A DNA stretch of 64,000 bases from Thalassotalea sp. PS06 (GTDB lineage: Bacteria; Pseudomonadota; Gammaproteobacteria; Enterobacterales; Alteromonadaceae). The DNA lies in assembly GCF_007197775.1 (NCBI RefSeq), contig NZ_CP041638.1, forward strand, positions 1,364,001-1,428,000. The letters are read 5' to 3'. Positions 2,926 through 62,640 of the stretch are shown one piece after another. Made by a program: the position numbers and the translations under genes. The first letter of the stretch is position 1; each line of letters starts with the position of its first letter. The notes under the pieces were generated by a model. That model ran no database searches and was not told the DNA's origin. It saw nothing but the letters and a program-made list of their open reading frames with translations.

Positions 2926-2990
2926 GTAAGTAATCCGCGGAACATAAAAATGTTTAGCTTTTATATTAGATACTGCTAACAAGCGGCTAT

Positions 2991-3680
2991 TGGCACTGAA
3001 GAGTCATTCGGCCCAAGCCAAGATTCCCTGTAGTATCAGGGAATGACGCAAGGGTTTTTGCTTTTTACTCGAAGCGACGTTTTTTTTAGCGGGTACAGAA
3101 TTTCGGTTCCAGACAAATTCTGCATACCAACGTCCATGTCGGTAACCCGGAACAATCTTTGATTGTGTACTCGAAGTGACGTTTTCCGTCACGTACCCGG
3201 AGTATCGTTTGCGATACGTACTCAGGGAGTTTTAACTCCCGCTTGTGGCACACTAGAGACATTCGGCTCCAGCTAAGATTCCCTGTAGTATCAGGGAATG
3301 ACGCAAGGGTTTTTGCTTTTTACTCGAAGCGACGTTTTTTGTCGCGGGTACAGAATTTCGGTTCCAGACAAATTCTGCATACCAACGTCCATGTCGGTAA
3401 CCCGGAACAATCTTCGATTGTGTACTCGGAGTGGCGCTTTCTGCCACGTTCTAGGAGTATCGTTTACGATACGTACTAAGGGAGTTTTAACTCCCGCTTG
3501 TGGCACATCAGAGACGCTCGCCCATTAACTTAGATACCGTGCAGAGTCACGGTATGACTCAAGTTTTTTGCTTTTTTCTCGGAGCAGCGTGTGCTAGGAG
3601 CTGATAACACCAGCGTGCTAAGAGTGGCGTTTTCTGCAACGTACTATGAACAATCTTTGATTGTGTACTCGGCGTTTCGC
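2991..3680. repeat. Tandem 255-bp repeats made of short hairpins (three copies, third degenerate)
   Basis: Copies start with TGGCAC at 2991, 3246 and 3501, an exact 255-bp period; the third is diverged and ends against the stop codon of the GGDEF-EAL gene. Each unit is a chain of inverted repeats: ATTCCCTG...CAGGGAAT, GCGAC...GTCGC, a longer AGAATTT...AAATTCT, ACAATC-TTT-GATTGT, GTGACG...CGTCAC, GTATCG-TTTG-CGATAC and GGGAGTT-TT-AACTCCC. The last several are separated by a near-constant linker GTACYCGGA/GTACTCGAA. Related sequence recurs at 49860-49995. Short open frames across these repeats follow the repeat period and are not credible genes. Confidence 0.9.
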
Positions 3681-5588
3681 TTAGATACCTTCAGGCTTAC
3701 CTATGTAATAGCCTTGGCAACCATCTACCAGAATTTCATCAAAGGTATGTTTTTCTTCCTGAGTTTCCACACCCTCAGCCAATACTTTGATGCTCATACG
3801 ATGCGCTAAATCAATCATCAGACGCAAGAAGTATTGGTTATTCTTATCGTTTTCGATGTTGCGGGTATAACTGCCATCCATCTTAATGAAATCAGGCGAT
3901 AGCTCTCTAAAGAACTTAAACGAGGTAATACCAACGCCAAAATGTTCGACACATACTTTCGCACCAACACGATGGACCATGTTGATAAAGTAGATACTGT
4001 CCTTAACATTTTGCTGTAAACCAAATTCACTTACCTCGAACACTAAGCGTTGGCTAATGTCTTTGTCTTTTAACAGGCGTCTCTCAAGCCAAATAATAAA
4101 GTGCTCATCATGGATAGAGCGAGAGCTCAGGTTAATACCAAAAGATTGCTCAGTCAGGTTCTTTTTGCGTATCTCAGATAACGCGGTTTCGATAACCAAC
4201 CGGTCGATCAGAATAATTTTATCGAGTTTCTCCGCCATGGCGATAAACGACGCGGTTGGCATTTGTTCACCTGCGGTATTGGTAAAACGTGCCAGGATTT
4301 CATGGTAGATTCGATTGTTACGGGCATTTGGCTGAATCAACTGAGTTAGCAGTGAAACATTCTGATGCTCGATAACGTAGTCGATTTCCTTGCCCCAACT
4401 CTGACTACCGTAGCCCATGGCATTGCTGTCATCCATTTTCTCATAGGATTGGATATACCAGGAATTCTTGTGTTTGGTTTCAGCAATACTGATTGCCGTA
4501 TCTGCCAGCGCTAGTAATTCCCCTAGTGGACGATCAATTTCAAAATTAACAATACCGGTGTAGGCGACGGAATCAATATCAGCGAGTACCTGATATTCAT
4601 TAAACAATCCCGTTAACTCATCGGCATAGGTTTGAGAGGCTTTCAAGGTAATGTTGGGAATAAAGGTCGCGAAATCAGAACCATTAAGGCGGAACAGTGA
4701 TGCGCCCTCAATATTCTTGATTTGTCGTTGCAGAATATTTGCTACCTGACACAGGTAACGGTCACCTTCCTGATAGCCATGCACCTTATTCAGAATTCTT
4801 AACTCGGTACAGCGAGTGATGAAAAGTACTCCAAAACTGCTGCCGCGAGTGTGCTTAGCGTACGCAGCGAAGAACTCGGCAAAGCTGTTACGATTAGACA
4901 AACCGGTAAGAGGGTCCACATACGCAGTCTGCTTTAATTCTTCAGTTTTTGATACTTTGGTGGTAATGAACTCTTTCAACTGCTGAATGGTAGTGTTCAC
5001 TTCGTTAAAAGCACTCGGCAACTGGAACTGTTCGATATCCTGTTGGTTATTGATCGCCTGTTTGATTTCTTCGGAGATCATACTGGAAATCTTTTCCGAT
5101 GCTTTACGATTGGCACGGACAGTCATCCGGGATGTAAGAAAAGTACCGACAATCACCATAAAGATGGTTACCAGAAGAATGAAAATGCTCAGGGTATTAA
5201 ACCAACTGATTAGCTCATCCTGATTTAAGCGATAACTTACTTTCGCGGTTAATGGTTTCGCGGTGATCGTATGCAGATCATCGGCATGTAACCAACTTGC
5301 CAGAGTTGCATAGGCTATTTTACGTTTGCTAAATGTGCCAACGTCATTTTTCGCCTGATCACGAACCGACAAATAGTCGTAATCGTAAGTATTATGTAGA
5401 GTCGTAGAGAAACGCTCTAATTCAGAGCCTTGGAATGTAATAGCATGGGTCAGAATCTGCGCTCTGTGCTGTTGATGTTGGTGATCAATGAAACCCTGAA
5501 GCCCAGTAAGGCTTAGGGTAAAAAATCCTATGAGAAAGATAACGGCAAAGATGATGTTTTTTGCCAAAATTTTTGCAACTGTCGACAT
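3681..5588 (-). CDS. LapD-type membrane receptor with degenerate GGDEF and EAL domains
   Basis: A 635-residue inner-membrane protein: helix 11-31, periplasmic LapD/MoxY-like domain about 32-125, helix 127-149, a HAMP-like linker, GGDEF domain about 220-380 and EAL domain about 400-630. The cyclase signature reads NGSDF (302-306) instead of GGDEF. The phosphodiesterase motif reads EIL (430-432) instead of EAL, and the metal-binding DDFG is EHFG (548-551). Both activities are therefore probably lost, while c-di-GMP binding by the EAL domain may remain, as in LapD. Known LapD proteins control the periplasmic protease LapG and adhesin release; no lapG or adhesin is nearby. The 3' end touches the hairpin repeats, and no separate terminator is evident. 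Confidence 0.85.
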   Translation of the reverse strand: MSTVAKILAKNIIFAVIFLIGFFTLSLTGLQGFIDHQHQQHRAQILTHAITFQGSELERFSTTLHNTYDYDYLSVRDQAKNDVGTFSKRKIAYATLASWLHADDLHTITAKPLTAKVSYRLNQDELISWFNTLSIFILLVTIFMVIVGTFLTSRMTVRANRKASEKISSMISEEIKQAINNQQDIEQFQLPSAFNEVNTTIQQLKEFITTKVSKTEELKQTAYVDPLTGLSNRNSFAEFFAAYAKHTRGSSFGVLFITRCTELRILNKVHGYQEGDRYLCQVANILQRQIKNIEGASLFRLNGSDFATFIPNITLKASQTYADELTGLFNEYQVLADIDSVAYTGIVNFEIDRPLGELLALADTAISIAETKHKNSWYIQSYEKMDDSNAMGYGSQSWGKEIDYVIEHQNVSLLTQLIQPNARNNRIYHEILARFTNTAGEQMPTASFIAMAEKLDKIILIDRLVIETALSEIRKKNLTEQSFGINLSSRSIHDEHFIIWLERRLLKDKDISQRLVFEVSEFGLQQNVKDSIYFINMVHRVGAKVCVEHFGVGITSFKFFRELSPDFIKMDGSYTRNIENDKNNQYFLRLMIDLAHRMSIKVLAEGVETQEEKHTFDEILVDGCQGYYIGKPEGI

Positions 5589-49417: not shown

Positions 49418-49639
49418 TTTCAGTGTAAATTTTAATTTAACTATAGGGGACTCTAAGCAAAAAACTAACAATAGTCATTTATCATCAGGGAGTTATATGG
49501 CGGGGCTAGCAAATAAGCCTTGGTTCGTATTAAATTCCTCGCGGTGTGAAATGTTAGTTTGCTTTGGAAGAGTCTCAATAAAGGATTAACAACTCCAAAC
49601 ATACGTATATTAGCAATTGCTAACAGACCGAGTATGACA

Positions 49640-49995
49640 CTTAAGAGACACTCGTCTCACACCTGAGATACCGTGCAGTATCACGGTATGACGCAAGAGT
49701 TTTTGCTTTTTCTTCCACCGAAAATTGCTCCTCGATAACTGCTCCTGCGTTATTCTACCTACATACATCCATGTATTAGTGCATTTTCGGCATATAGTCC
49801 ATCCCTGGCCAAAACCTTCCACCTTCCACCTTCCACCTTTCACTTCCACCTGCGAAGCGAAGCTTACCTCACTCGAAGCGACGTTTTGTGTCGCGTACCC
49901 GGAACAATCTTTGATTGTGTACCCGAAGTGGCGCTTTCTGCCACGTCCTCGGAGTATCGTTTACGATACGTACTGATGCAGTTTCAAGTCCCGCA
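49640..49995. repeat. Composite of dispersed repeats
   Basis: Three known blocks are joined. 49665-49693: GATACCGTG...CACGGTATGACG, also in the third 255-bp repeat near 3531. 49715-49810: a split copy of the CGAAAATTGCTCC ... CATTTTCGGCATATAG repeat found at 15031, with an extra segment of about 48 bp in its middle that is itself hairpin-rich. 49860-49995: five hairpins of the 255-bp family (GCGAC...GTCGC, ACAATC...GATTGT, GTGGC...GCCAC, GTATCG...CGATAC, and a degenerate last one). Open frames here are not credible genes. Confidence 0.85.
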
Positions 49996-61800: not shown

Positions 61801-62640
61801 TTCGTCATTCCTGACTCCGATAATGTACCGTCATCCCGGACTCCGATAATGCACCGTCATCCCGGACCATGTTCCGGGATCTAAGCGTAACTCGTCATTC
61901 CGGACCCCGATCCGGAATCTTAGCGTAAATCGTCATTCCGGACCCCGATCCGGAATCTTTATGGCACAACTAATGTAGTAGCTAAATGTAAAACCTGAGA
62001 TACCGGGCGACCCCGGTATGACGTGAAGGATTGGTTGGGCTCCGCCAAACCGTCATCCCGGACCATGTTCCGGGATCTAAGCGTAACTCGTCATTCCGGA
62101 CTCCGATCCGGAATCTTTATGGCACAACTAATGTAGTAGCTAAATGTAAAACCTGAGATACCGGGCGACCCCGGTATGACGTATAGGATTGGTTGGGCTC
62201 CGCCAAACCGTCATCCCGGACTCCGATCCGGGATCTTAGCGTAACTCGTCATTCCGGACTCCGATCCGGAATCTTTATGGCACAACTAATGTAGTAGCTA
62301 AATGTAAAACCAGAGATACCGGGCGACCCCGGTATGACGTATAGGATTGGTTGGGCTCCGCCAAACCGTCATCCCGGACCATGTTCCGGGATCTTAGCGT
62401 GAATCGTCTTTCCGGACTCCGATCCGGGATCTTAGCGTAACTCGTCATTCCGGACTCCGATCCGGAATCTTTATGGCACAACTAATGTAGTAGCTAAATG
62501 TAAAACCAGAGATACCGGGCGACCCCGGTATGACGTATAGGATTGGTTGGGCTCCGCCAAACCGTCATCCCGGACCATGTTCCGGGATCTTAGTGTAACT
62601 CGTCATTCCGGACCCCGATCCGGAATCTAAACTAGAAAGG
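61801..62640. repeat. Tandem array of 158/196-bp hairpin units
   Basis: Units start with CGTCATCCCGGA at 61855, 62051, 62209, 62367 and 62563: spacings 196, 158, 158 and 196. The 38-bp difference is one extra hairpin module (CGTCATTCCGG...CCGGAATCTTAGCGTAA, or a close variant). Each unit contains CCCGGA..TCCGGG, TTCCGGA...TCCGGAA, the segment TTTATGGCACAACTAATG, then GATACCGGG...CCCGGTATGACG and GGTTGGGCTCCGCCAAAC. Copies differ by few bases. It fills the 904-bp gap between the lipoprotein and the next minus-strand gene. Confidence 0.93.

Follow-up and report, generated by a model that had tools for sequence, protein, structure and literature searches.

Dispersed palindromes in bacteria and the hairpin chains of Thalassotalea

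Bacterial interspersed mosaic elements (BIMEs) are mosaics of palindromes and conserved linkers that lie between genes. Repetitive extragenic palindromes (REPs), according to Di Nocera 2013, comprise GTAG- and CGTC-tagged families located mostly in convergent and unidirectional gaps, with complementary changes in their stems; head-to-tail REP dimers are described there as absent, under-represented or negligible, and CGTC-1 of Neisseria corresponds to dRS3 (PMC3733652). Tandem GI/GIII REP arrays of Pseudomonas fluorescens run forward near 2 Mbp and reversed near 4 Mbp (PMC3116915). Here we describe chains of short hairpins from a 64,000-nucleotide stretch of Thalassotalea sp. PS06 (the window, positions 1,364,001-1,428,000 of the single chromosome of 3,795,229 bp), in which copies of a 255-bp unit lie head to tail. 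We see an even chance that the chains belong to the REP/BIME type of repeats, as a family of mosaic palindromes located between genes and present in three Thalassotalea-like genomes.

The chains consist of hairpins of 13-24 nt arranged head to tail and separated by a near-constant 9-nt linker (GTA-CYC-GRA), with stems free in sequence as long as they pair, a layout that matched no family in the literature examined. In the stretches fetched from the PS06 genome there are 218 such modules. Of these, 204 carry the strict linker and form 35 clusters, though a few are probably chance occurrences. The modules comprise 94 distinct hairpins, of which 84 possess at least five Watson-Crick pairs and are about 13-24 nt long.

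Set against the five REP criteria quoted in PMC12306157, the chains are palindromic and short (84 hairpins in the range just given; 14-40 nt in E. coli), multicopy (204 modules, 35 clusters) and extragenic, 30 of the 35 clusters lying outside any called open reading frame (ORF) of at least 80 codons. With regard to high similarity and a common consensus motif, the linker is conserved and the stems have just their purine-pyrimidine start in common. The unpaired GTAG at one end of GTAG REPs is lacking and the chain has mostly GTAC. Like GTAG REPs with their RAYT (PMC3733652, PMC8266576), they are short intergenic hairpins marked by a fixed unpaired tetranucleotide, with complementary stem changes and mostly in convergent or unidirectional gaps; unlike them, the tag is GTAC within a 9-nt linker and the stems have no consensus. 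A RAYT partner (PF01797) was not found, the search giving one sub-threshold Y1 match (22.1 bits, cut-off 23) in a locus without the chain pattern (L225); the lone IS200-like (Y1) protein at 1420-2028 of this locus seemingly lacks, by eye, the usual HxH motif. On the minus strand of each module GTAC directly precedes the hairpin. In TnpA-REP experiments, replacing GTAG by GTAC shifted where the Marinomonas enzyme (REP loop TTTA) cleaves and abolished cleavage by the Stenotrophomonas enzyme (PMC8266576), an analogy that may offer a lead on the GTAC modules and is not evidence.

The intergenic mosaic of palindromes and conserved linkers is shared with enterobacterial BIMEs. Their regularly spaced REPs alternate in orientation (PMC2817692), whereas 29 of the 35 clusters here are one-way, each arm keeps a single orientation and the stems have dozens of sequences. 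Tandem REPs and REPINs of P. fluorescens likewise show head-to-tail arrays, a replichore-like orientation and compensatory changes (in REPIN spacers), but are conserved 16-mer REPs at 72 and 112 bp, in contrast to the mostly 24-28-nt steps and many stems found here (PMC3116915). Rfam yielded no match in the window or in loci L217, L218, L106 and L111, and only four tRNAs in L048, L054, L192 and L136; a published description of such chains was not found in the open-access literature searched. The original prediction that no named family has this serial hairpin layout is thus upheld for the chain, but not for the first hairpin of the unit, which comes near the CGTC-tagged REP design (PMC3733652). 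Palindromes that lie between genes, change their stems in a complementary fashion and carry a fixed unpaired tag have been described before.

Maintenance of pairing in variable stems

Pairing is maintained while the stem letters change, and about this we have hardly any doubt. The inserts that lie between two linkers were collected whether or not they pair, which gave 228 instances and 119 distinct sequences. Among the 119 distinct inserts, 82 have Watson-Crick pairs at all five outer positions; when the 3' halves were shuffled 1000 times among inserts of equal length, this number averaged 19.7 and never exceeded 30. Over all 228 instances, 188 have five outer pairs and 17 have four. Fewer than four pairs are present in 22 distinct inserts, 11 of which consist of two 7-nt mini-hairpins across a GTGCTAGGA-like linker, the rest being, on reading, broken, misframed or chance. 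The folds of the two full copies likewise exceed chance, with z scores between -2.75 and -5.23.

Alignment A1 (32 rows, 25 pairs) has 98.4% of its cells paired, with two-sided changes in 6 of the 25 pairs (20 cells). Its covariation score is 0.117, compared with 0.080 after shuffling, and none of 500 shuffles reaches it; the number of further pair types is unexceptional (12 vs 10.9 shuffled; 90 of 500). When the 3' side is shifted by 1-3 columns as a control, only 16-56% of the cells stay paired. The rows are paralogues of one genome plus two from T. litorea, and the cells are not independent events. Mean minor fractions rise from 0.050 in stems and 0.085 in linkers to 0.121 in loops. In six hairpin families two-sided changes (34 cells) outnumber single mismatches (26 cells), and in three parallel arrays of T. 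mangrovi the third hairpin reads ATAAATTC, ATAAAACC and ATAAAATT, each with its exact complement and with similar neighbours. Both signs on which the original prediction depended, an excess of compensatory changes and an uneven spread of mutations between stems and loops, are present.

Copy number and linker

Copy 2 of the unit has 104 BLAST matches in its own genome, and the pattern GTACYCGRA-N12..24-GTAC has 111, compared with 9 for the reversed pattern used as a control. The stems share only a purine-pyrimidine start (53 of 60); it is the linker that is conserved, without any stem consensus. A module is followed by GTAC in 139 of 204 cases, by GTGC in 31 and by GTTC in 19. Linker composition was counted around exact hairpins sought anywhere without requiring a linker (227 occurrences), which reduces the bias but does not remove it, the hairpins having come from the linker-based catalogue. 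Upstream, C4 is present in 227 of 227, G7 in 221, A9 in 224 and G or A at position 8 in 224; downstream, G follows in 217 of 227, then T in 218. The linker can be read as GTA-CYC-GRA, a stem being flanked by GRA on its 5' side and usually by GTA on its 3' side, and an R8.T2 pair with an A9.G1 mismatch could lengthen the stem. Self-pairing of the linker core YCGR is not indicated by the linker counts, in which the two variable positions show, by eye, no visible correlation. GGA and GAA linkers number 115 and 89; with GAA nearly as frequent, a role of the linkers as a CsrA sponge was rejected on reasoning.

Modules run both ways in 6 of the 35 clusters. The two-way arrays inspected consist of two arms diverging from a centre and differing in their stems. 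Identical hairpins reappear in differing neighbourhoods and orders. The array at G000:C1:262571-263958 (L033) contains 204-bp versions of the unit head to tail, three of them identical over the chain part, and is probably a recent duplication. Arrays also adjoin tandem tRNA genes, four of them in L048 (array 4541-5024), and a repeated tRNA-like sequence was seen by eye beside the array at 1436886 (G000:C1:1436500-1437220).

A second linker occurs as well. Chains with GTGCTAGGA carry 7-nt inserts, mostly purine-pyrimidine-GNA-purine-pyrimidine (GCGAAGC, ATGCAAT, ACGAAGT, GTGAAAC). In a manual count of 27 (32 rows, 5 of another kind left out, 13 of the 27 from one array), 22 have both base pairs and 25 the GNA loop, and compensatory changes are visible in only two base pairs. 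GCGAAGC is known as an unusually stable DNA mini-hairpin. Such mini-hairpins (RY-GNA-RY, GTGCTAGGA-like linkers) form chains or single copies at G000:C1:2733704-2733904 (L054) and in L221, L222, L106, L124 and L136.

The 255-bp unit in the window

The original prediction described copies at an exact 255-bp period. Copies 1 and 2 are indeed spaced by exactly 255 bp and abut without a gap, with 91-92% identity, but there are two full copies, not three, the third being degenerate. The latter shows about 75% identity over 90 bp, has a later piece at 243-bp spacing, and ends at the stop codon of a convergent gene that resembles a GGDEF/EAL protein (domain names by eye). The order in the unit is a CGTC-tagged palindrome, the GCGAC stem, a hairpin with the CGGTTCCAGAC loop, a small CCAAC..GTCGG hairpin and the ACAATC, GTGAC/GTGGC, GTATCG and GGGAGT hairpins, the last four of which are separated by short linkers. 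The features are as follows.

2986-3240, plus strand: copy 1 of the 255-bp unit.
3241-3495, plus strand: copy 2 of the unit, query of the genome search.
3496-3682, plus strand: third copy, degenerate and rearranged, with a further piece at 3648-3682.
3023-3048, minus strand: CGTC-tagged palindrome of copy 1 (tag 3045-3048, stem 3023-3030/3037-3044, 6-nt loop), compared with the CGTC REPs of PMC3733652.
3278-3303, minus strand: CGTC-tagged palindrome of copy 2, the same shifted by +255.
3074-3091, plus strand: GCGAC..AGCG stem of copy 1, broken (from the sequence).
3329-3345, plus strand: GCGAC-GTTTTTT-GTCGC hairpin of copy 2, intact (from the sequence).
3096-3122, plus strand: hairpin CAGAATTT-CGGTTCCAGAC-AAATTCTG of a conserved-loop class (loop motif counts), stem variable elsewhere.
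3127-3142, plus strand: hairpin CCAAC..GTCGG, one A.C mismatch on the plus strand.
3152-3166, plus strand: hairpin ACAATC-TTT-GATTGT, copy 1 (sequence, alignment A1).
3167-3175, plus strand: linker GTACTCGAA (linker composition counts).
3176-3192, plus strand: hairpin GTGAC..GTCAC, copy 1 (alignment A1, pair 38-48: AU 20, GC 8, GU 4).
3193-3201, plus strand: linker GTACCCGGA (sequence, linker composition).
3202-3217, plus strand: hairpin GTATCG-TTTG-CGATAC, copy 1 (sequence, alignment A1).
3225-3240, plus strand: closing hairpin GGGAGT-TTTA-ACTCCC, copy 1 (sequence, alignment A1).
3407-3421, plus strand: hairpin ACAATC-TTC-GATTGT, copy 2 (sequence).
3431-3447, plus strand: hairpin GTGGC..GCCAC, copy 2, two-sided change relative to copy 1.
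3457-3472, plus strand: hairpin GTATCG-TTTA-CGATAC, copy 2 (sequence).
3480-3495, plus strand: closing hairpin GGGAGT-TTTA-ACTCCC, copy 2 (sequence).
3534-3664, plus strand: third-copy hairpins ATACCGTG..CACGGTAT, GCTGAT..ACCAGC, GTGGC..GCAAC and ACAATC..GATTGT, the GCTGAT and GTGGC hairpins with one mismatch each.
49635-49992, plus strand: partial unit in two pieces, 49635-49711 and a chain at 49871-49992 (sequence comparison).

The differences that had been reported between the copies are seen in the sequence: GTGAC..GTCAC becomes GTGGC..GCCAC with both arms changed and the pairing kept, the loops change from TTT to TTC (ACAATC hairpin) and from TTTG to TTTA (GTATCG hairpin), the GCGAC..AGCG stem is broken in copy 1 and whole in copy 2, and GTACYCGRA-like linkers are present between the hairpins. 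The differences are not limited to loops and compensated stems; the linkers differ too. What had been taken for a copy near 49860 is the two-piece partial unit listed last.

The first hairpin of the unit is described here as CGTC-REP-like and is not assigned as a member. On the minus strand it possesses, as in CGTC-tagged REPs, a CGTC tag followed by an 8-bp stem starting with AT, and it is intergenic and multicopy; unlike them, it has a loop of 6 nt (published 4-5 nt) and a CTT tail (published mostly CCA; PMC3733652), and the GTAC hairpins of the chain are of another design. Elsewhere in the window (61803-62628), tandem arrays with periods of 26, 38, 158 and 196 bp consist of CGTCATTCCGG...CCGGAATCT palindromes that resemble CGTC-tagged REPs. 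The conserved-loop motif of the 3096-3122 class, GTTCC(A/C)GAC, occurs 18 times in the PS06 stretches read, in 16 cases with a stem and in 7 different hairpins, and hairpins like these stand next to genes in a congener and in a member of the family outside the genus (L065, L066). The unit part with the CCAAC..GTCGG hairpin has weak matches in three relatives (L064, L065, L066).

Genomic placement and orientation

Genes were called mechanically by ORF length. At a threshold of 80 aa or more, 16 of the 35 clusters lie in convergent gaps, 14 in tandem gaps and 5 in divergent ones. At 110 aa or more, 26 clusters are placed (11 convergent, 12 tandem, 3 divergent), compared with 33, 163 and 41 among 237 other gene pairs of the same stretches; convergent gaps are enriched (one-sided Fisher p 0.001), and also at 130 aa or more (30 clusters, 12/16/2, vs other pairs 24/153/33; p 0.0003). 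One-way clusters in tandem gaps mostly run with the genes (9 of 11 with and 2 against at 110 aa; 10 with and 2 against at 130 aa). In 36 of the 41 cluster-directions tested, the 500 bp upstream showed no other terminator-like hairpin.

The orientation largely follows the replichores. The gene dnaA lies at base 364, and the GC skew of the fetched stretches is for the most part positive up to about 1.9 Mb and for the most part negative beyond 2.18 Mb. Of the 27 one-way clusters considered, 23 are co-oriented with replication (one-sided p 0.00016; two doubtful clusters and the six two-way ones excluded). Convergent gaps, in which the direction of the genes favours neither orientation, contain 15 one-way clusters, of which 11 run with replication (manual count).

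No ORF of at least 100 aa extends across the window copies and the reading frame is not preserved by module steps of 24, 25 and 26 nt, so protein coding is judged unlikely. It has to be added that 255 and 204 are multiples of three and that a 398-aa frame remains open through the 204-bp array at 262.6 kb; three Pfam matches in this frame are all under the cut-off.

Distribution in other genomes

The distribution is narrow in the collections searched. PS06 alone shows the three-linker pattern in a comparison that covered 15 genus genomes and a sample of 395 from the family, and BLAST of 39 genomes including PS06 yields elsewhere just one short weak match in each of three relatives. In the species-genome collection 10 of at least 120 pattern loci hold hairpins between strict linkers, five in T. 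mangrovi and five in T. litorea; PS06 has been reported to cluster with these two species (PMC7564069). None of the 87 viral loci scanned (of 95 stretches found) holds hairpins between strict linkers, and the plasmid and phage collections gave no pattern match. Six of 16 loci inspected are Thalassotalea chains and the remainder are other repeats. Paraburkholderia runs of GTACCCGAA are a different, look-alike repeat. Two-armed arrays of the unrelated actinobacterium Sinomonas albida (L112 5990-6246, L146 7275-7650), one arm of which carries TCTCGGGTAC or TTTCGGGTAC and the opposite arm GTACCCGAAA, were rejected as relatives of the chains and are different arrays.

The rpoS region of PS06 (L217) is orthologous to a T. 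litorea locus (L111), with 96% identity of the RpoS-like protein. In both genomes rpoS and an rfaH-like gene (names by eye) are separated by an array that begins about 15 nt past a terminator-like hairpin, with many hairpins in common and a different arrangement. All 14 congeners (14/14) possess a hairpin after rpoS followed by other DNA, the chain pattern being absent from the locus; this DNA (L281-L294) mostly resembles, by eye, a convergent mutS. At the window locus the end of the neighbouring gene was located in 7 of the 14 congeners, again with other DNA after it, and none of the 14 loci has the chain pattern; as synteny is broken, a clean empty site is not readable.

Folded strand

The forward strand, i.e. 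the one that reads GTACYCGRA, is favoured by the excess of G.U and G.T pairs. Helices 1-3 of A1 contain 24 G.U cells and 5 unpaired ones, and the first non-Watson-Crick pair of the 94 distinct hairpins is G.T in 26, A.C in 10 and another in 17, with 41 unscored. C deamination on an exposed forward strand could also raise G.T. Taken together we consider the forward strand the likelier of the two to be the folded one, with reservations; between DNA and RNA as the acting form our judgement is about evenly divided.

Origin of the chains

If the chains are mosaic palindromes of the REP/BIME kind, the recognised or tolerated form would be the folded forward strand, whether in a transcript that continues past the upstream gene or in the single-stranded template of the lagging strand. 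They may have spread and changed by tandem duplication and by exchange of hairpin modules at the linkers, an exchange suggested by the same hairpins standing in different neighbourhoods and orders and by the rpoS-rfaH array common to T. litorea. Today they might serve as 3'-end spacers that are passive or of slight use, a role also ascribed to REPs. Several observations weigh against this reading. The stems lack a common consensus, unlike classical REPs, and no transposase is tied to the chains: relatives of the Y1 gene are present in 12 of 15 genomes of the genus (PS06 included), whereas 14 of the 15 lack the chain pattern. Of the 35 clusters, 18 overlap some ORF of at least 80 codons and 5 lie inside one. 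For four of the five this ORF has 82-100 codons, and the fifth sits ahead of the YicC domains in a 381-aa frame, the true start of which probably lies later; the ORFs concerned are mostly short and probably spurious. In tandem gaps replication orientation is confounded with gene direction. As to the strand, the stem mismatches in the six families are G.T in 12, A.C in 7 and other in 7, several of the G.T deriving from one inherited change; copy 2 as RNA folds better on the minus strand (z -5.23 vs -2.75 on the plus strand; plus-strand DNA of copy 2 -4.10, plus-strand RNA of copy 1 -3.19); and the energies of the 84 single hairpins show no clear strand preference (RNA 26 forward, 42 equal, 16 reverse; DNA 23, 41 and 20).

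The cause of the kept pairing may be RNA selection, selection on single-stranded DNA or palindrome-correcting mutation. The original prediction had read the pattern as selection on folded RNA or single-stranded DNA and not on protein; the maintained pairing and the improbable coding agree with it. Selection, on RNA or on single-stranded DNA, is one possible cause, and palindrome-correcting template switching could likewise preserve perfect stems in the absence of any function. A 3'-end RNA element, co-transcribed with the upstream gene, whose hairpins would protect, process or terminate the transcript and whose pairing would be held by RNA selection, seems rather unlikely to us. It accords with the convergent and co-directional placement, the surplus of G.U over unpaired cells in A1, the 36 of 41 cluster-directions without another terminator-like hairpin upstream and the array near four tRNA genes in L048, but the terminator-like hairpin that precedes the rpoS arrays of both species, like one of the same kind just before the array of L192, implies that the upstream transcript would mostly end before the array. 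Half of each two-armed array is, moreover, the reverse strand, and the congeners have the hairpin after rpoS without any array.

Mutation alone, with quasi-palindrome template switching perfecting the stems and tandem duplication multiplying them without function, strikes us as improbable to a similar degree. The preponderance of two-sided changes over single mismatches in the six families and the replichore bias would fit such a replication-linked process, and C deamination on the exposed forward strand would favour G.T intermediates; left unexplained are the linker that is constant in three species despite differing stems, the purine-pyrimidine stem starts and the GNA triloops of the mini-hairpins. 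Quite unlikely, in our view, is a structure-recognising enzyme that acts on the folded forward strand, cuts or joins at the GTAC linker, builds and moves the chains one module at a time and accepts any paired stem; if it existed, the arrays would be strings of cassettes, each a bare hairpin, put together on single-stranded DNA, and the linker would be their sole conserved signal. A guide-RNA array of the tandem interspaced guide RNA (TIGR) or another type, with the variable stems as guides, is nearly refuted. Variable palindromes in tandem and fixed motifs also occur together in TIGR stem-loop arrays, but these possess two 8-12-nt spacers per unit and a Nop-domain protein (PMC12045711), neither of which was found here: only the 9-nt linker lies between hairpins, and PF01798 has no match in the PS06 genome (control: found in 4 of 14 genomes). 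The 35 scattered clusters and the lack of an Rfam match to the chain speak against it as well.

Most dispersed bacterial palindromes keep their sequence, so that sequence and structure are hard to separate. In the chains the stems have diverged to dozens of sequences within one genome while linker and pairing stayed, and what is recognised (linker and fold) is thereby split from what is free (the letters of the stem). The chains offer a natural test case for how such elements are retained, be it as RNA, as single-stranded DNA or through palindrome-correcting mutation.
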